NCBI RefSeq assembly: GCF_039233145.1
Contig: NZ_CP136419.1
Location: 1,214,001 to 1,278,000, forward strand
Source of the DNA: Moorella humiferrea
Lineage (GTDB): Bacteria; Bacillota; DSM-521; Neomoorellales; Neomoorellaceae
Direction: 5' to 3'
Length of the DNA: 64,000 nucleotides
Under the pieces are notes generated by a model. The model ran no database searches. It was not told the origin of the DNA and saw nothing but the letters and a program-made list of their open reading frames with translations. Shown here one piece after another: positions 41,804 through 49,998 of this stretch (the first letter of the stretch is position 1; every line of letters begins with the position of its first letter). A program made the position numbers and the translations under genes.

Positions 41804-41872
41804 CTCCACCTCCCGGCACCTTTTCTCCCATCAATATATGCTCTAAACCATCTGAAAAGAACGGCATGGGCG

Positions 41873-41897
41873 AAAAAACCCCGGGATAAACCCGGGG
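41873..41897 (-). terminator. terminator of the acs-hdr-met cluster
   Basis: CCCCGGG-TTTAT-CCCGGGG followed by TTTTTT on the minus strand, 8 bases after metF. It ends the whole leftward block. Confidence 0.93.
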
Positions 41898-41905
41898 GAG
41901 CCGAT

Positions 41906-42829
41906 TTAATCCACTTTGGGGCGGGGGTAGAGGCCGGCTTCCTTGACGATGGTGGGGATGATATCTTCCCACATGACGGCCATGATGTGCACGCCGGCTA
42001 CACCTTCAATGTTTCTTAGGTGTTTTATCTGTTCAACGCATATCGCCACCCCTTCGGCTTTGGGGTCGGCGGCTTTCTCCATGCGGTTGACGATTTCCTC
42101 GGGAACGATCATCCCGGCCACTGACTGCTGCATATACCGGGCGGCTTTGGCGGATTTTAAGGGCATGACGCCGGCGATGATGTAGGCCCTTTTGTGAAGC
42201 CCCCTTTCCCTGACCATGGCCATGAACTTCTCGAAACGCTCCATGTCGAAGATGCATTGGGTCTGGATGAAGTCGGCCCCGGCGTTGATTTTCTTTTCCA
42301 GCCGTAAGACCCGAAACTCAAAGGGATCGGCAAAGGGGTTGGCAGCGGCGCCTATGAAGAAGCGGGGCTCATTACCTTTCAGCTCTTCCCCGCAGGCGAA
42401 CTTTTTCTCGTCCCGGAGGTCCTTGACGATTTTGATGAGCTGGATGGAATCTATGTCATGGACGTTTTTGGCCGTCGGGTGGTTGCCAAAGCTTTGGTGG
42501 TCGCCCGAGAGGCAGAGGACGTTGCGCATACCCAAACTGTAGGCGCCCAGAAGGTCGCTCTGCAGGGCGATCCTGTTGCGGTCCCGGACCGTCATCTGGA
42601 TGATGGGTTCGCCCCCGCTTGCAAGGACGTGGACGCCGGCGGCGATGCTGGAAAGGCGCACGATGGCCGTCTGGTTGTCCGTCAAATTCATGGCATCCAC
42701 GTAGTCTTTAAGGAGGGCGGCATGTTTTTTTATTCCTTCGGGGTTGGCGTGTTTCGGCGGCCCTATTTCCCCGCTCACCACGAAATGCCCCTGGGAAAGG
42801 AGTCTTTCCAGTTTGCTTTCCGTCTTCAT
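41906..42829 (-). CDS. metF: methylenetetrahydrofolate reductase, flavoprotein subunit MetF
   Basis: The 307-residue TIM-barrel protein reduces methylene-THF to methyl-THF in the methyl branch. Signatures are GEIGPPKHANPEGI (catalytic Glu region), NVLCLSGDH and GADFIQTQCIFD. ATG 42829 overlaps the metV stop (ATGA); the upstream extension lies inside metV and is rejected. It pairs with the zinc/Fe-S subunit MetV. In Moorella the pair joins HdrABC-MvhD, as the gene order here implies. Confidence 0.93.
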   Translation of the reverse strand: MKTESKLERLLSQGHFVVSGEIGPPKHANPEGIKKHAALLKDYVDAMNLTDNQTAIVRLSSIAAGVHVLASGGEPIIQMTVRDRNRIALQSDLLGAYSLGMRNVLCLSGDHQSFGNHPTAKNVHDIDSIQLIKIVKDLRDEKKFACGEELKGNEPRFFIGAAANPFADPFEFRVLRLEKKINAGADFIQTQCIFDMERFEKFMAMVRERGLHKRAYIIAGVMPLKSAKAARYMQQSVAGMIVPEEIVNRMEKAADPKAEGVAICVEQIKHLRNIEGVAGVHIMAVMWEDIIPTIVKEAGLYPRPKVD

Positions 42830-43497
42830 GCCAGCCTCACATCCTCTCGTACCACTTTGCGGGGACCGCCGTCCCGGGATTTGGACCAATCCTTGGGCGG
42901 CTGGATTTCCAGGAGGAGGTCGAGTTTACCGAGGGTCTTCAACCGGTCGTAGATGAGCTGCCAGGCGCAGGGGGTTTCCGGGTTGACCTCGCATTTGCCG
43001 TTCTGGGAGCCGCCACAGGGGCCGTTGAGAATGCTTTTGGAGCAGCGGATAACGGGGCAGATCCCCCCGGTTTTATGGAGGATGCACTCGCCGCAGAGGC
43101 CGCAGCGTTCTTCCCAGACGCCGTGCTCGATAGTTGCGCCGGCGAACTTGGTGTTTAAGGCCGGCACTACCCATTTAGGGTAGCGTTCGGCCAAAAACTG
43201 GACGCCGACGCCGCAGGCCAAAGAGACGATGGCGTCGATGTCGTCGGTTACATATTTAGCCAGCATGTCGACGTACTCCGGGTCGCACTGGCGGGTCAGG
43301 GTGACTTCCACCGTTTCCAGGGGATTGCCTTCCTTTTTCCTTAACATCCGCAAAGCAGCGGCTAGAATCCCCGTTTCCTTTTCGCCGCCGGCCAGGCACA
43401 CGGTCACGCAGCCGCCGCAGCCGACCACCAGTATTTTTTGCGCATCATTGATTAACCCTGCCACTTCGGCCAGGGGTTTAGCCTCGGCGATAATCAT
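42826..43497 (-). CDS. metV: methylenetetrahydrofolate reductase, Fe-S subunit MetV
   Basis: The 223-residue protein has GCGGCVTVCLAGG near the N-terminus and a C-terminal cysteine cluster (RCGLCGECILHKTGGICPV, then RCSKSILNGPCGGSQNGKC) for [4Fe-4S] clusters. MetV passes electrons to the MetF flavin. It overlaps mvhD and metF by 4 bases each, typical of a translationally coupled complex. Confidence 0.93.
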   Translation of the reverse strand: MIIAEAKPLAEVAGLINDAQKILVVGCGGCVTVCLAGGEKETGILAAALRMLRKKEGNPLETVEVTLTRQCDPEYVDMLAKYVTDDIDAIVSLACGVGVQFLAERYPKWVVPALNTKFAGATIEHGVWEERCGLCGECILHKTGGICPVIRCSKSILNGPCGGSQNGKCEVNPETPCAWQLIYDRLKTLGKLDLLLEIQPPKDWSKSRDGGPRKVVREDVRLA

Positions 43498-43973
43498 TCC
43501 CCTTCACCTGCTTTCGTCGAATTTCCTTTATGGCCTTCGCCTTCTTTTGGGGGAGGAGGATAGTTTTTGTTCAACGGGCTAGGGCCGAGTTTCTTAATCC
43601 GTTCGGTGAACTCCTGGGCGATTTCCGCAAAGCGCGGGCCCATGGCCGCCGAGAGGTTGTACATCTCCAGGCGTTCGCCGCCGATGCCGATCTCGTCCAG
43701 GATTTTTTTGGCTTGCTTAACCCGGCGCTTGGCCCGGTAATTACCTTTCAAGAAATGGCAGTCGCCCTCCATGCAGCCCAGGACGTAGACACCGTCAGCG
43801 CCCTTTTCAAAGGCCTCCAGCAGTACCCGCACGTCGGTCTTCCCGGAGCAGGGCATTTCAATCACGCGGATATTGGCCGGGTACTGCAGCCGTAAAGACC
43901 CGGCCAGGTCGGCGGCCGAGTAGGCGCAGTAGTAGCAGCAGAAGGCGACGATTTTCGGCTCAAAATCCTGCAA
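43494..43973 (-). CDS. mvhD: MvhD-like [2Fe-2S] electron-transfer subunit
   Basis: The 159-residue protein matches the MvhD/delta-subunit family: FCCYYCAYSAADLAG, MPCSGKTDVRVLLEAFEKGADGV and GCMEGDCHFLKGNYRAKRR. It links HdrA to partner oxidoreductases. The start is TTG at 43973 behind GGAGGTGTAACCT, just after hdrA. About 25 C-terminal residues are Pro/Lys-rich and probably disordered. Confidence 0.92.
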   Translation of the reverse strand: MQDFEPKIVAFCCYYCAYSAADLAGSLRLQYPANIRVIEMPCSGKTDVRVLLEAFEKGADGVYVLGCMEGDCHFLKGNYRAKRRVKQAKKILDEIGIGGERLEMYNLSAAMGPRFAEIAQEFTERIKKLGPSPLNKNYPPPPKEGEGHKGNSTKAGEGE

Positions 43974-43976
43974 AGG

Positions 43977-46900
43977 TTACACCTCCCCGAAGAGGCCGGC
44001 CACCTTGGCCAGCAGCTGGTCGTCTTTGTAGAACTGGAGCTGGATGGCCTTGGCCGGGCATTCGCCGGCGCAGGTGCCGCAGCCCATGCACTGGACGGCG
44101 TCGATTTCGGCCACGCTACGCTCGTTGATGCGCGGTACACTGTAGGGGCAGACCCGGACGCAGGTCAGGCAGGCCGCGCATTTGTTTTCCTCGACCACGG
44201 CCACCACGCCGCCCACCATGAGGTTCTCCCGGCTTAAAATGGTGCAGGCCCGGGCCGCCGCCCCTTGGGCCTGGGCTATGGCCTCGGCGGCAAACTTGGG
44301 GGCATGGCCGGCCCCGCAGAGGAATATGCCGGCCGAAGGAAAGTCTATGGGCGCAAGCTTGGCGTGGGTCTCGACATAGAACTTATCTTCGTTAAGGGGC
44401 AGCTTCAACATGGTGGCCAGTTGTTCTATACCTTGAGGCGCTACGGCACCCGTGGCTAAAACCAGCTGGTCGGGCCAGAGGACCAGGTCTTTGCCGGAAT
44501 CGGGATCGGTGATGAGCACTTCCAGAAGGCCGATATCCCGGCGCCGTACCTCGGGGGGCTTTTCCGGGTCGTAGTGGATAAAGATGACGCCTTCTTCCCT
44601 GGCCCGGCGGTAGTAATCTTCCATGAAGGCATAGGTGCGGATGTCCCGGTAAAGGACGTAAACCGCCGTTTCCGGGCTCCTTTCTTTTATGGCCAGGGCG
44701 TTTTTAATGGTCTGGGCGCAGCAGGTGCGGCTGCAGTAGGGTCGCTCTTCATCCCGGGAGCCCACGCACTGGATGAAGACCACCTGTTTGTTTTTGTGTG
44801 CCTCCCACTTGCCGGCGGCAAGGCTTTGTTCCAGTTGGGTGTTGGTTAGCACCCGTTCGTCCTGGCCGTAGAGGTAGGATGTGGTTGTTACCTCCCGGCT
44901 GCCGGTGGCGACAATCACCACGCCGTGTTCCAGTTTCAGGGTGCGGCGAACATGTTCTTTGCCCGGTTCTGCTACTGAGATGGTGGTGGTAAAATGCCCC
45001 TGGTGGCCGCCGAAGTCTTCTATCTTGGCGTTGGTGAACACGGTGATGCGCTTATTTTCCCGGACCCGGGCGATGAGGTCTTTTAACAGGGCCTGGAGGT
45101 CGTCGCCTTCTAGTGTTTTCCTTAAATTGCGCACCTGACCTCCCAGCTCATCTTCCCGTTCGACGATGATGGCCTCATACCCCTGGTCGGCGATATTTAA
45201 TGCCGCCGTGAGCCCTGATATGCCGCCGCCGATGATTAAGGCCTTCTGGACGACGGGCACGGGCTTAAGGTGCAGGGCTTCGTGGCGCTTGACCTTGGCC
45301 ACGGCCATGCGTACCAAATCGATGGCTTTTTCTGTGGCCTTGTCCGGTTCGTTGCGGTGCACCCAGGAACACTGGTCGCGGATGTTGGCCATTTCAAAGT
45401 AAAAGGGGTTTAAGCCGGCCTCCTTCAAGGCTTCCCGGAAAAGGGGCTGGTGGGTGCGGATGGTGCAGGAGGCCACTACCACCCGGTTTAAGTTGTATTC
45501 GTGGATGGCTTCTTTTATCTTGTTCAAGGTGTCCTGGGAGCAGGTGTAGAGGTTGTCCTCGGCATGGACGACGCCGGGAAGTTTGGCCGCAGCTTCGACT
45601 ACCGCTTTGACGTCGACGACCCCGGCGATGTTGATGCCGCAGTGGCAGATGAAAACCCCCACCCGCGGTTCTGCGTGACTTACGTCTTTTTCCGGCGGGT
45701 ACTCTTTGGGTTTAACCAGGGTGTTGCGCCCGGAAGATATTGCGGCCCCGGCCAGGGCGGCGGCGGCGCTGGCGTTGACCACCGTCTCCGGTATGTCCCG
45801 GGGGCCTTGAAATACCCCGGCCACATATACGCCCGGCCGGGTGGTCGCCGCCGGCTCCATTGGCAGGGTCCGGGCAAAGCCGTAAGGGTTAAGCTCAATG
45901 CCGGCGGCGGCCGCCAGTTTTTCCGCCCCGGCCGGGGGCTTCACCCCTACCGCCAGGACGACCATGTCGAATTCTTCCCGGTTTATCCGGCCGTCGGCGT
46001 AGTACTGGATGGTGAGGTTTTTGGTCTTCGGGTCTTCTTCCACCCGGGAGATCATGGCCCGCACGAAACGTACCCCGGCGGCTCTGGCCCCTTCGACGTA
46101 ACGGTCGAAGTTCTTGCCGTAGGCGCGGATGTCGAGGTAAAAGATGGTCGGCTCGATATTGGCGTCGTGCTCTTTGGCGATAAGGGCTTCTTTGGTGGAA
46201 TACATGCAGCAGATGGCCGAACAGTAGGGGCTGCCTTCCCCATCAATGTCCCGGGAGCCGACGCACTGGATGAAGGCCACCTTTTTCGGCGGTCTGCCGT
46301 CGGACGGCCGCAGTACATGGCTTTCCGTGGGACCGGTGGCGCTAAGGAGGCGCTCAAATTCTAAACTCGTGACTACATTGGCGTAGTAGCCGTAACCGTA
46401 CTCCCCGGCTAAAGCGGCATCAAACAGCTCGTACCCCGGGGCCAGGACCACGGAGCCGACCTGGAGTTTGATGACCTTCTCTTCCTGCCAGTGCTCGATG
46501 GCCTTTTTCTTACAGGCGGTTTCGCACTGGAGGCATTCGGAACAGATGCCGCAGTTTAAGCACCTTTTGGCTTCTTCTATGGCTTCCTCCGGGGTAAAGC
46601 CCTGGTAGACTTCGCGGAAATCCCGTATACGTTCGGAGGCCGTGGCCATGGCCTGTTTTTGGCGCCTGCCGGGGAAGGGCACGACATTGGGCGGCGGGTC
46701 CAGCCTGGGTTGTTTTTCTTTCTTACGGCCGGCGGCCAGGTCTTTTCCTTCCAGGTAGCGTTTTACGCTTTCGGCGGCTTCGTGGCCGCCGGCTACGGCT
46801 TCGACCACCGAGGCGGGACCGCTCACTACATCCCCGCAGGCGAAAATGCCAGGTATAGCTGTGGCCAGGGTTACGGGATCGGCGGCGATTAGCCCCCGGC

Positions 46901-48440
46901 TGGTAGTTATGCTACCGTCTTCTTTTAAGAAAGAAAGATCGGCGGCTTGGCCGATGGCTAAGATTACGGTGTCGGCGGCTAGAACCGTGGTGACTTCCGG
47001 GTTATACTGGGGATTGAAACGGCCTTGTTCGTCGAAGACCCGGGTGCACGCCATGAGCTCTACACTGGTGACCCGGCCGTCTTTCCCCAGGAAGCGTTTG
47101 GGTCCTAAGGAGGGATGGATGATGACGCCTTCTTCCAGGGCTTCTTCGACTTCCCAGGGGTGGGCGGGCATCTCTTCCCTCTTTTCCAGGCAGGCCAGGT
47201 GGACTTCTGCGGCCCCCAGGCGCCTGGCCGTGCGGGCGACGTCTATGGCTACGTTGCCGCCGCCGATAACTACCACCCTTTTGCCTACTTTAGGCCTGCC
47301 GCCCAGGGCCGTTTCCCGTAAGAATGATACGCCGGGTAGTATCCCTCCTAAATCGGCTCCGGCGATATTTAACATGCGGCTCTTTTGCAATCCGGTGGCG
47401 ATGATGACGGCGTCGTATTCTTTTTTTAGTTCGGCCAGGGTGATGTCTTGGCCGACAGTGATGTTGCCGATAAATTTTACCCCCAGGGCGAGGATGCGTT
47501 CCGTTTCCCGCTCTACTACCTCCAGGGGCAGGCGGTACCGGGGTATGCCGGCCCGCAGCATGCCGCCGGGTTTGTCCAGGACGTCGTAGATGGTGACCTG
47601 AAATCCTTCCAGGGCCAGGTCCTGGGCGGCGGTAAGACCCGCAGGACCGGCGCCGATAATGGCTACCTTTTCTTCTTTGGCGGGTATATCCGCTTTTTGT
47701 TGTTTTTCGCGGGCGGCTTCTTCTTCCCAGCCGTAGTCGTAGGCCGCCCTCTTCAATGTGGCTATGGCGATGGGGTCGTCGTACTGCCCCCGGTTGCATT
47801 CAGTCTCACAGGGGTGGTGGCAGATGCGGCCGCAGATCCCGGCAAAGGGCATGCGCCGGTGGATGACTTCTAATGCTTCGGCGAATTTCCCCTGGGAGAT
47901 CAGGGCTACGTACCCTTGAGCGTTGGTCCCCGCCGGGCAGGCGCTGCGGCAGGGCGGAGTGCCCCTCTTGGTGATGAGGTATTTATTGGGCACCGCCTGG
48001 GGAAACATTTTGTGGATGGCTTTCCTGCTGCCCATATTCTGGTTGTATTCGTTGGGGACTGTTACCGGGCAGACCTGTTCGCAGTCGCCGCAGGCCGTGC
48101 ATTCTTCGCTATTGACGTAGCGGGGGCTTTGGCGCACATAGGCAGTGAAGTTGCCTTTTTCTCCTTCTATTTTTTCTATACTGGCCAGGGTGTGCAGGCG
48201 GATGTTGGGATGGGTAAGGGTGTCCGTCATGCGGGGTCCCAGAAGACACATGGCGCATTCGTTGGTGGGAAAGGTCTTGTCCAGCTGGGCCATGCGCCCG
48301 CCTAAAGATGAGCTTTCAGTCACCAAGTGTACCAGGTAGCCGGCATTGGCTAGATCAAGGGCTGCTTGCATCCCGGCTATGCCGCCGCCTGCTACCAGTA
48401 CCGCCCCTGTGGCTTTTTCTTTGTCCTGCTGTGCTTGCAT
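43977..48440 (-). CDS. hdrA: HdrA-type electron-bifurcation protein, triple-flavin fusion
   Basis: The 1487-residue protein has three flavin units. (a) Residues 1-160: HdrA FAD fold (VAGGGIAGMQAALDLA), NECAMC and ferredoxin CTACGDCEQVCP near 113. (b) About 180-570: a GltD/NfnB-like insert with CRSACP...ICGRICHHPCETEC, FAD site IIGAGPAGLTAAQDLA near 262 and NAD(P) site VIGGGNVAIDVARTARR near 393. (c) HdrA resumes (CLNCGICSECLQCETAC, FIQCVGSRD). (d) From about 930 there is a whole second HdrA: GVFICHCGINIAGVVDV, GGGISGLTAAL and two C-terminal ferredoxins (CAACLTCVRVCP; CMGCGTCAGECP). NAD(P)H entry through (b) is inferred. Confidence 0.93.
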   Translation of the reverse strand: MQAQQDKEKATGAVLVAGGGIAGMQAALDLANAGYLVHLVTESSSLGGRMAQLDKTFPTNECAMCLLGPRMTDTLTHPNIRLHTLASIEKIEGEKGNFTAYVRQSPRYVNSEECTACGDCEQVCPVTVPNEYNQNMGSRKAIHKMFPQAVPNKYLITKRGTPPCRSACPAGTNAQGYVALISQGKFAEALEVIHRRMPFAGICGRICHHPCETECNRGQYDDPIAIATLKRAAYDYGWEEEAAREKQQKADIPAKEEKVAIIGAGPAGLTAAQDLALEGFQVTIYDVLDKPGGMLRAGIPRYRLPLEVVERETERILALGVKFIGNITVGQDITLAELKKEYDAVIIATGLQKSRMLNIAGADLGGILPGVSFLRETALGGRPKVGKRVVVIGGGNVAIDVARTARRLGAAEVHLACLEKREEMPAHPWEVEEALEEGVIIHPSLGPKRFLGKDGRVTSVELMACTRVFDEQGRFNPQYNPEVTTVLAADTVILAIGQAADLSFLKEDGSITTSRGLIAADPVTLATAIPGIFACGDVVSGPASVVEAVAGGHEAAESVKRYLEGKDLAAGRKKEKQPRLDPPPNVVPFPGRRQKQAMATASERIRDFREVYQGFTPEEAIEEAKRCLNCGICSECLQCETACKKKAIEHWQEEKVIKLQVGSVVLAPGYELFDAALAGEYGYGYYANVVTSLEFERLLSATGPTESHVLRPSDGRPPKKVAFIQCVGSRDIDGEGSPYCSAICCMYSTKEALIAKEHDANIEPTIFYLDIRAYGKNFDRYVEGARAAGVRFVRAMISRVEEDPKTKNLTIQYYADGRINREEFDMVVLAVGVKPPAGAEKLAAAAGIELNPYGFARTLPMEPAATTRPGVYVAGVFQGPRDIPETVVNASAAAALAGAAISSGRNTLVKPKEYPPEKDVSHAEPRVGVFICHCGINIAGVVDVKAVVEAAAKLPGVVHAEDNLYTCSQDTLNKIKEAIHEYNLNRVVVASCTIRTHQPLFREALKEAGLNPFYFEMANIRDQCSWVHRNEPDKATEKAIDLVRMAVAKVKRHEALHLKPVPVVQKALIIGGGISGLTAALNIADQGYEAIIVEREDELGGQVRNLRKTLEGDDLQALLKDLIARVRENKRITVFTNAKIEDFGGHQGHFTTTISVAEPGKEHVRRTLKLEHGVVIVATGSREVTTTSYLYGQDERVLTNTQLEQSLAAGKWEAHKNKQVVFIQCVGSRDEERPYCSRTCCAQTIKNALAIKERSPETAVYVLYRDIRTYAFMEDYYRRAREEGVIFIHYDPEKPPEVRRRDIGLLEVLITDPDSGKDLVLWPDQLVLATGAVAPQGIEQLATMLKLPLNEDKFYVETHAKLAPIDFPSAGIFLCGAGHAPKFAAEAIAQAQGAAARACTILSRENLMVGGVVAVVEENKCAACLTCVRVCPYSVPRINERSVAEIDAVQCMGCGTCAGECPAKAIQLQFYKDDQLLAKVAGLFGEV

Positions 48441-48473
48441 TTTTGCGTCTCACCTTCCTTTCTCCTGGGAAGC

Positions 48474-49337
48474 TCATGCTAACCCATACTGCCGCAAAAG
48501 GGGAAAGGGGTCGATTAGGTGTTTTTTTAGCCAGGGGGTTGGGTCCAGCCCCAGGCTTAGACCGAGGATCTCTGTTATGAAAAAGACAGGCAGCGGTTCT
48601 TCATCCTTTGTTTGGCGGCTTTCCAGGTTGGTGTGGCATAAGGGGCAGGCGGTGACTATGGCCTTCGCTCCGGCATACCGTGCGGCTTCTACTATTTTCC
48701 CTACCAGTTCTTCTACCAGTTTTGGCTGGGGTATGGAGAGGCTGGCGCCGCAGCATTCGTTTTTATGGCTCCAGCTCACCGCTGTCGCCCCGCATAAGGT
48801 TAACAGCCGGTCCATCAGTCGGGGCTGTTCGGGATTGGCTTCAAAGCTGGCTACCTTCGGTGGCCGGGTTAAAAGGCAGCCGTAATATGACGCCAGGGGA
48901 ATTCCTCCTAATTTTTTAGTGACCTTCCTTTCCAGGGCGGTAAAAACGCCGGGTTCGGCCAGTACCTCGATTACATGCCGTACTTTGATTGTGCCCCGGT
49001 ACTCTCGCCCCATGATTTCTTTGGCCCTTTGCCCCAGTTCTTTTGCTTCCCGGCTTGCTGTCGCCATAAAGTTTTGGGTGGTCCTTAGGGTGTTGTAACA
49101 GGCGGCGCAGGGTACCAACAGGTCGTTGCCGGCGGCTTCGGCCAGTATCAGGTTGTACAGGGGTAGAGCATGGCTTAAATTACTGTCTAGGGAGTGGCCC
49201 GAGGTGGCCCCGCAGCAGCTCCAGTCGTTTAGCTCTTCTAGCTCTACCTCCAGGGCTTTAAAGACGCCTTCGGTGGAGGCGGAATATTCGGCCGAGGTGG
49301 CGTGCAGGGAACAACCAGGGTAATATGATAGTTTCAT
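48474..49337 (-). CDS. hdrB: heterodisulfide reductase subunit B-like protein
   Basis: The 287-residue protein has the two CCG domains: LNDWSCCGATSGHSL...CAACYNTL and HKNECCGASLSIP...ACPLCHTNLE, which bind noncubane [4Fe-4S] clusters. ATG 49337 follows AGGAGG and overlaps the hdrC stop by 4 bases; the upstream extension is inside hdrC. Since acetogens lack the methanogen heterodisulfide, its natural substrate in this complex is unknown. Confidence 0.92.
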   Translation of the reverse strand: MKLSYYPGCSLHATSAEYSASTEGVFKALEVELEELNDWSCCGATSGHSLDSNLSHALPLYNLILAEAAGNDLLVPCAACYNTLRTTQNFMATASREAKELGQRAKEIMGREYRGTIKVRHVIEVLAEPGVFTALERKVTKKLGGIPLASYYGCLLTRPPKVASFEANPEQPRLMDRLLTLCGATAVSWSHKNECCGASLSIPQPKLVEELVGKIVEAARYAGAKAIVTACPLCHTNLESRQTKDEEPLPVFFITEILGLSLGLDPTPWLKKHLIDPFPLLRQYGLA

Positions 49338-49888
49338 CTTCGCTCCTCCTTGGACCCTTCCCACATGGCCCGGAAGCGGCCTTTGTTTTTTATTCCTCCG
49401 CTAAATATGGGCAGCTTCCCCCGGCGCAGCATCTTAAAGCCCAGGGGGGCGTCCTGGAGGTAGGTCCTTGTCTTTAGCTTGTACGCTGCCAGCATCCCCA
49501 GTTCATGCACCCGTCCCCTGCTTTTTACCGATGCCAGAAAGGCCTGGTGGAAGGCGGCTACTTCCGGCAGGGCCGGTACTGCCCCTCTGGCCAGGGCCCG
49601 TTGTTTTAAGGCATCGTTGATGGCGGCGATATCGATGCCGTTGGGACAGCGGGATACGCATGTCCGGCAGGCGGCGCATTGCCAGATGGTTTTGCTTTTT
49701 ATGAGTTCTTCTTCCAATCCGAGCTGCACATAGCGGACCACTTGATGGGGCATGAGGTCCATGGCCATGGCCACCGGACACCCCGCTGTGCATTTGTGGC
49801 ACTGGTAGCAGCGGTTAACAATCTGCCCGCTCCCTGCGGCTACTTCCGCCGCCAGCTCCTGAGACGGGATGGTTTGCTGCCCGGCCAT
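49334..49888 (-). CDS. hdrC: heterodisulfide reductase subunit C-like protein
   Basis: The 184-residue ferredoxin-like protein has CYQCHKCTAGCPV and CAACRTCVSRCPNGIDI, two [4Fe-4S] sites typical of HdrC. It carries electrons between HdrA and HdrB. It is the first gene after the terminator-like hairpin that separates the acs genes from the hdr-met genes. The start follows GGAGGAAGGGGG. Confidence 0.92.
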   Translation of the reverse strand: MAGQQTIPSQELAAEVAAGSGQIVNRCYQCHKCTAGCPVAMAMDLMPHQVVRYVQLGLEEELIKSKTIWQCAACRTCVSRCPNGIDIAAINDALKQRALARGAVPALPEVAAFHQAFLASVKSRGRVHELGMLAAYKLKTRTYLQDAPLGFKMLRRGKLPIFSGGIKNKGRFRAMWEGSKEERR

Positions 49889-49912
49889 CCCCCTTCCTCC
49901 TTTCTCTTGCCG

Positions 49913-49947
49913 AAAAAGAGAGGTACTGCCTTTCGCCGGTACCTCTC
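49913..49947 (-). terminator. terminator-like hairpin between acsE and hdrC
   Basis: GAGAGGTAC/GTACCTCTC arms followed by TTTTT on the minus strand, about 50 bases after acsE. It should lower read-through into hdrCBA-mvhD-metVF or be an RNA processing point. Confidence 0.75.
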
Positions 49948-49998
49948 CTATTTAATTTCATTTTAAAGTAATGAGGTTCGACGTCCTCGGTAAAAGTC

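Follow-up and report, generated by a model that had tools for sequence, protein, structure and literature searches.

The hdrA gene and its operon

The window, a 64,000-nucleotide stretch of the Moorella humiferrea genome, carries hdrA on the minus strand at 43977–48440. Its product, defined from the reading frame and profile matches, is a double HdrA with a GltD/NfnB-type insert (1487 aa plus stop). The uninterrupted 1487-residue frame described in the first-pass annotation was recovered, but on the minus strand; the plus strand of 43977–48440 contained many stops. Genes for HdrC with two CxxCxxCxxxC motifs (49334–49888), HdrB with both CCG motifs complete (48474–49364), MvhD/FlpD (43494–43973), MetV (DUF5981; 42826–43497) and MetF (MTHFR; 41906–42889) were assigned by profile matches, with motif support for HdrC and HdrB, and all shared the minus strand with hdrA. 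Further upstream, genes read by eye from their translations as a CODH/ACS cluster (AcsE, CooC, RACo, AcsB, and others).

With hdrA encoded beside hdrB, hdrC, mvhD, metV, and metF, the protein is the HdrA subunit of the Moorella MetFV-HdrABC-MvhD (type IV) methylene-tetrahydrofolate reductase, an identity that was already suspected and is supported by the operon order and by the M. thermoacetica ortholog. That ortholog, from strain DSM 21394, occupies a collinear 1489-codon frame in the same operon order and was 83% identical over residues 1–1487, differing by substitutions only, although the strain used for purification of the complex may differ. A full-length open frame was found in all 10 other Moorella genomes searched, the closest full-length matches of the protein being 81–87% in ten same-genus genomes, with collinear orthologs in the named species M. 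thermoacetica, M. stamsii, M. mulderi, and M. sulfitireducens. These orthologs rule out a chance or misread frame. The protein is thus already known, and its unusual build is real but largely published; what is new is the residue pattern of the two HdrA copies, the permutation of the insert, and the exchange of the NAD(P)H cassette.

Profile searches (Pfam, NCBIfam) recognised FAD and NAD folds along with ferredoxin motifs and a Fer4_20/GltD unit. The HdrA2 model matched at 974 bits, far beyond chance, and the methanogen HdrA equivalog cutoffs were missed (NF041778, 719.7 vs 1400; NF041891, 683.5 vs 1300; NF040770, 974 vs 1100). Phmmer against solved structures returned HdrA matches in four pieces (query 15–152, 631–885, 917–1096, and 1348–1484). 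Membership in QmoA/QmoB, considered because Planctomycetota (L028, L035) have separate copy 1-like and copy 2-MvhD-like genes, was rejected, as no Qmo model scored and the likeness is one of analogy only.

The M. humiferrea genome, in a further difference from M. thermoacetica, has a second near-identical copy of the operon. The 8.1-kb hdrCBA-mvhD-metVF block (41864–49957) recurs at C1:1934829–1942921 of the same genome with 99.8% identity over 8,095 alignment columns and intact frames, and the other Moorella genomes searched had one full-length hdrA. The second copy adjoins a paralogous insert-free double-HdrA gene (1095-codon frame) and an HdrC-like gene (L039/L040, L003; C1:1942965–1948657).

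Two complementary HdrA halves

The phmmer alignments let us reconstruct most of 5ODC HdrA, which we then compared by alignment with the two halves of the protein and with unfused relatives. Copy 1 is split by the insert. Its first part (residues 12–160; 47961–48407, minus strand) holds the GGGIAG FAD motif, T41 where the ribose Glu is expected, a CxxC loop with C65 equivalent to Cys197, and C114–C124, where the inserted ferredoxin has its first 4Fe-4S motif. The second ferredoxin motif (C627–C643) and the remainder of copy 1, with E696, K750, and GPRDIP, follow at residues 627–905 (45726–46562, minus strand), and the cluster cysteines of the TrxR domain are 726/740/744/745. Copy 2 comprises an N-terminal domain with Cys 932, 934, 967, and 992 (residues 922–1062; 45255–45677), an FAD domain with E1094 and K1246, located by alignment and model (residues 1063–1405; 44226–45254), and a C-terminal two-cluster ferredoxin (residues 1410–1487; 43980–44213; profile matches and alignment), all on the minus strand.

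In the alignment each half has what the other lacks, as in a pseudo-dimer made of one chain. Copy 1 retains the Rossmann fold and the Cys197 loop together with the inserted ferredoxin and the cluster cysteines of the TrxR domain, and is without the N-terminal CHCG domain and the C-terminal ferredoxin. Copy 2 likewise has the TrxR-domain cysteines, in addition to an FAD fold, the N-terminal domain (GVFICHCG), and the C-terminal ferredoxin, and is without the Cys197 loop (FPTNDCSIC) and the inserted ferredoxin. Across 43 fused orthologs, C65 was invariant in copy 1 (43/43), as were the N-domain cysteines in copy 2 (43/43), and the loop was missing from copy 2; judged from these alignments, copy 2 is the half that has lost the predicted loop ligating the inter-subunit cluster. 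The domain order of the first-pass annotation (HdrA, ferredoxin, GltD, HdrA, second HdrA) therefore stands, as does a second HdrA with GVFICHCG and a two-cluster ferredoxin, but the alignment rules out a complete second HdrA. The structure model of copy 2 (pLDDT 85.5) had HdrA chains as its best matches (TM 0.84).

This is the fused, complementary arrangement described by Chadwick et al. 2022 (PMC9012536), who reported the Moorella HdrA explicitly as such and presented it as a pseudo-heterodimer, not two bifurcases. ANME HdrA3/HdrA4 share the two halves with complementary N-domain/Cys197 loss; their published order has the N-domain half first, whereas in Moorella the Cys197 half comes first, and Chadwick et al. 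2022 describe an NfnB insert for HdrAs other than these. Methanogen HdrA (5odc, 8rvu) has the same FAD fold, N5 Lys, and TrxR-domain cluster cysteines, but one full HdrA per chain, in a homodimer without insert.

A single-copy HdrA elsewhere in the M. humiferrea genome (L008:1438–3480; C1, about 0.815 Mb) has one in-frame TGA precisely at the Cys197 position (DCSAU), which suggests selenocysteine as an inter-subunit cluster ligand. PDB chain 9sfi has an X at the same place.

A permuted NfnB-type insert

The insert (residues 161–626; 46563–47960, minus strand) interrupts copy 1 inside its ferredoxin and was defined by profiles and alignment as a permuted GltD/NfnB unit with a GAGPAG FAD motif, R303, a GGGNVA NAD motif, and L418–E419. 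The PRK12771 model (NF009410) covered residues 136–662 at 557.7 bits, above its cutoff of 516, with a further score of 519.8. In NfnB an RCxxC segment lies at the N terminus (4ylf residues 12–42, ending RCLQC), whereas its aligned counterpart in the insert lies at the C terminus. The insert is thus a circularly permuted NfnB, like the solved chains 8oh5 and 9bov, which also have a C-terminal RCxxC. Its RCLNC motif merges directly into the second Cys motif of the HdrA ferredoxin; C627, 630, 633, 636, 639, and 643 were each conserved in 43/43 fused orthologs, and the NADH flavin would accordingly be wired into the copy 1 ferredoxin. A model of copy 1 plus insert (pLDDT 79.7, pTM 0.58) matched Nfn-ABC/StnABC and HdrA chains, with the region of the first ferredoxin motif (residues 108–159) poorly predicted. 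Together, the two models support the predicted folds of copy 2 and of copy 1 with its insert.

NfnB Arg187, which sits at N5 of the bifurcating FAD of NfnB (PMC6405883), corresponds to R303, conserved in 42/43. In NfnB, two arginines are said to bind the phosphate of NADP; they align to L418–E419, an NADH-type pair, so the insert has the N5 Arg hallmark of NfnB and lacks its two NADP-binding arginines. This supports the insert as a putative NADH-type entry site, in line with the NADH diaphorase activity reported for M. thermoacetica HdrA (PMC5861303, PMC8578096), and narrows the NAD(P)H entry of the first-pass annotation to NADH at the level of sequence. PRK12771/NfnB/StnABC GltD modules (NF009410; 4ylf, 5jca, 8oh5, 9bov) share the fold, FAD motif, and N5 Arg; the Moorella unit differs in being nested in HdrA and in its NADH-type L418 and E419. 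ANME-1 HdrA9–11 are by description similar, with an NfnB-like insertion of about 500 aa in the HdrA ferredoxin, to which the Moorella protein adds a second HdrA half.

Relatives and cassette exchange

In a sample of 398 genomes from the phylum, 74 had a match at E ≤ 1e-200. Inserted (about 1490 aa) and uninserted (about 1015 aa) double HdrAs were both common, often in one genome, and their partners varied: metFV; hdrBC with a second double HdrA and without metFV (L073–L075); or mvhD with a long HdrC (L071, L089). In Planctomycetota (L028, L035), three neighbouring genes (copy 1-like, copy 2-MvhD-like, and HdrC-GltD-like) form an unfused counterpart, and in a Bathyarchaeon (L033) GltD and an uninserted double HdrA are separate genes. 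A 1325-codon double HdrA (L067) has a partial GltD insert without the NAD-binding part, a possible case of cassette decay.

On the tree, presence of the insert could not be explained with fewer than five changes. Two loci (L070, L072) have the chassis of the Thr clade defined below with inserts from the other insert lineage and an NADPH-type RR pair, which indicates exchange of the NAD(P)H cassette at one and the same position. Forcing the Thr-clade inserts together cost 167 log-likelihood units (p-AU 1e-6), for a group picked after a quick tree had been seen. Third-position GC of the M. humiferrea insert was within the range of its flanks, ruling out insert composition as a mark of recent transfer.

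Flavin-site residues

We compared the flavin sites of both copies in the 43 fused orthologs. As the neighbouring flavin Glu of HdrA we took Glu356. Lys409 of 5ODC is the N5-contacting lysine of the HdrA flavin (PMC6405883), and its equivalent in copy 1, K750, was invariant (43/43), as were E696 (43/43) and the GPxDIP aspartate D882 (43/43). In copy 2, the N5 lysine was variable (K1246 in 35/43, with S/N/Q/R in the other 8/43), and the DIP motif was absent in addition to the Cys197 loop. A comparison of these residues in both copies, as the first-pass annotation had advised, thus upheld the pattern of an HdrA-type bifurcase for copy 1 and weakened it for copy 2.

On the adenosine side the copies were reversed. 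Where beta-2 ends and an acidic residue is expected, copy 1 had Thr in 27/43 and Glu/Asp in 16/43, with E/D at the next position in 25/27 of the Thr clade; the corresponding residue of copy 2 (E1094) was Glu in 43/43. The Glu-to-Thr replacement in copy 1 is one change on the tree of the HdrA part, on a branch with SH-aLRT 100. At Thr-clade loci with flanks read, hdrA was always beside metFV and mvhD, but metFV was also near three Glu-type loci (L076, L081, L088) and so is not exclusive to the clade. As to loss of FAD contacts, a concern raised at the outset, both copies keep their GxGxxG motifs, and the ribose Glu of copy 1 has become Thr. These comparisons point to bifurcation-type flavin surroundings conserved only in copy 1 and to the strongest adenosine-side FAD signature in copy 2. 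They favour copy 1 as the only HdrA half that would be a methanogen-type bifurcation site and do not support bifurcation at both HdrA flavins. With Thr at the ribose-Glu position in 27/27 of the clade, the flavin of copy 1 may be weak or absent, in which case the proposed bifurcation site would vanish.

Electron flow and competing interpretations

In the 2014 abstract, recombinant HdrA reportedly carries two FAD and the native complex about one. The purified counterpart of this protein is HdrA of the M. thermoacetica MetFV-HdrABC-MvhD complex (Mock et al. 2014, as relayed in PMC5861303 and PMC9012536), and a review (PMC5861303) states that HdrA of the purified complex harbours two FAD. Of the three FAD sites originally predicted, the three FAD-type folds are present in the sequence, but three FAD in the protein are at odds with the two reported for M. 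thermoacetica.

From this anatomy we infer the electron paths, the pseudo-dimer folding, and any bifurcation as follows. NADH would reduce the FAD in the permuted NfnB-type insert by hydride transfer, and single electrons would exit through the 4Fe-4S clusters of the insert, which share the copy 1 ferredoxin domain, into the HdrA core. The two halves would fold as an internal pseudo-dimer, with one cluster bound jointly by C65 of copy 1 and the copy 2 N-domain, and copy 1 would retain bifurcation-type flavin surroundings (Lys750, Glu696). The C-terminal ferredoxin of copy 2 would dock MvhD, then MetV/MetF. HdrB keeps both CCG motifs and is therefore a plausible site for a substrate, the third electron partner. 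We give a probability of about 0.55 to this overall reading, that of an NADH-fed insert and a pseudo-dimeric HdrA core with a bifurcation-type flavin in copy 1 and with copy 2 docking MvhD. Its extension to an NfnB-type flavin (R303) and an HdrA-type flavin (K750) working in series, with an exchangeable cofactor cassette and a second acceptor reduced or oxidised at HdrB, seems to us distinctly improbable.

Several other readings bear on the same residues. Copy 1 could be a flavin-free scaffold in the Thr clade, the two measured FADs being those of the insert and copy 2; the single, well-supported Glu-to-Thr event and the invariant copy 2 Glu fit this, but the other FAD motifs and K750, E696, and D882 of copy 1 are kept and an acidic residue nearly always adjoins the Thr, so we regard it as doubtful. 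The bifurcating flavin could instead be that of the insert, as in NfnB, with the HdrA halves as mere wiring. R303 and both permuted cluster motifs are kept and the nearest solved relatives are bifurcating Nfn-ABC/StnABC chains, yet NfnB bifurcates to the NfnA 2Fe-2S cluster and the operon encodes no NfnA partner, free GltD relatives are not known to bifurcate, and Lys750 of copy 1 is invariant too; we consider this unlikely. Filling of all three FAD sites with both HdrA flavins bifurcating, the double bifurcation or confurcation module that the first-pass annotation suggested, is very improbable. It would accord with the intact GxGxxG motifs, with the predicted HdrA fold of copy 2, and with Lys and Glu at the flavin positions of both copies of the M. 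humiferrea protein, but is opposed by the two FAD per HdrA, by the loss of the ribose Glu from copy 1 in Moorella's clade, and by copy 2 itself, in which the Lys is replaced in 8/43 and the cluster loop and DIP motif are gone.

The complex could also function with no bifurcation, as a plain NADH-to-MetFV and/or quinone linker. Ferredoxin reduction was tested with the M. thermoacetica complex and not seen, and bifurcation was not demonstrated; in T. phaeum, the combined NADH/ferredoxin reaction was not seen and a linker to the quinone pool was proposed. Against this, the invariant bifurcation-type residues of copy 1 and the kept HdrB CCG motifs suggest a third partner, and a 2026 paper makes the case for confurcation with menaquinol; we find a plain linker fairly unlikely.

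DsrC was considered as an obligate third partner. It was present in 9/11 Moorella genomes, but one genome with the complex (G006, 100% complete) had no dsrC match, and the DsrC of M. humiferrea itself lies in an apparent dissimilatory sulfite reductase cluster, so DsrC is not obligate. That cluster (L090; C1:1708001–1726000) reads by eye as dsrAB and dsrMK with two dsrC-like genes, the longer of which has both C-terminal cysteines.

Implications for Moorella-type acetogens

The complex produces the acetate methyl group from CO2, and the hdrA product is its electron-distributing protein. At stake is energy conservation at the methylene-THF step of Moorella-type acetogens. Our comparison narrows this question to single residues: the occupancy of each of the three predicted flavin sites, and the flavin at which the N5 Lys or Arg is required. 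Judging from the exchanged cassettes, NADH and NADPH input appear to have been swapped in evolution on the same HdrA chassis, which provides natural pairs for comparison.
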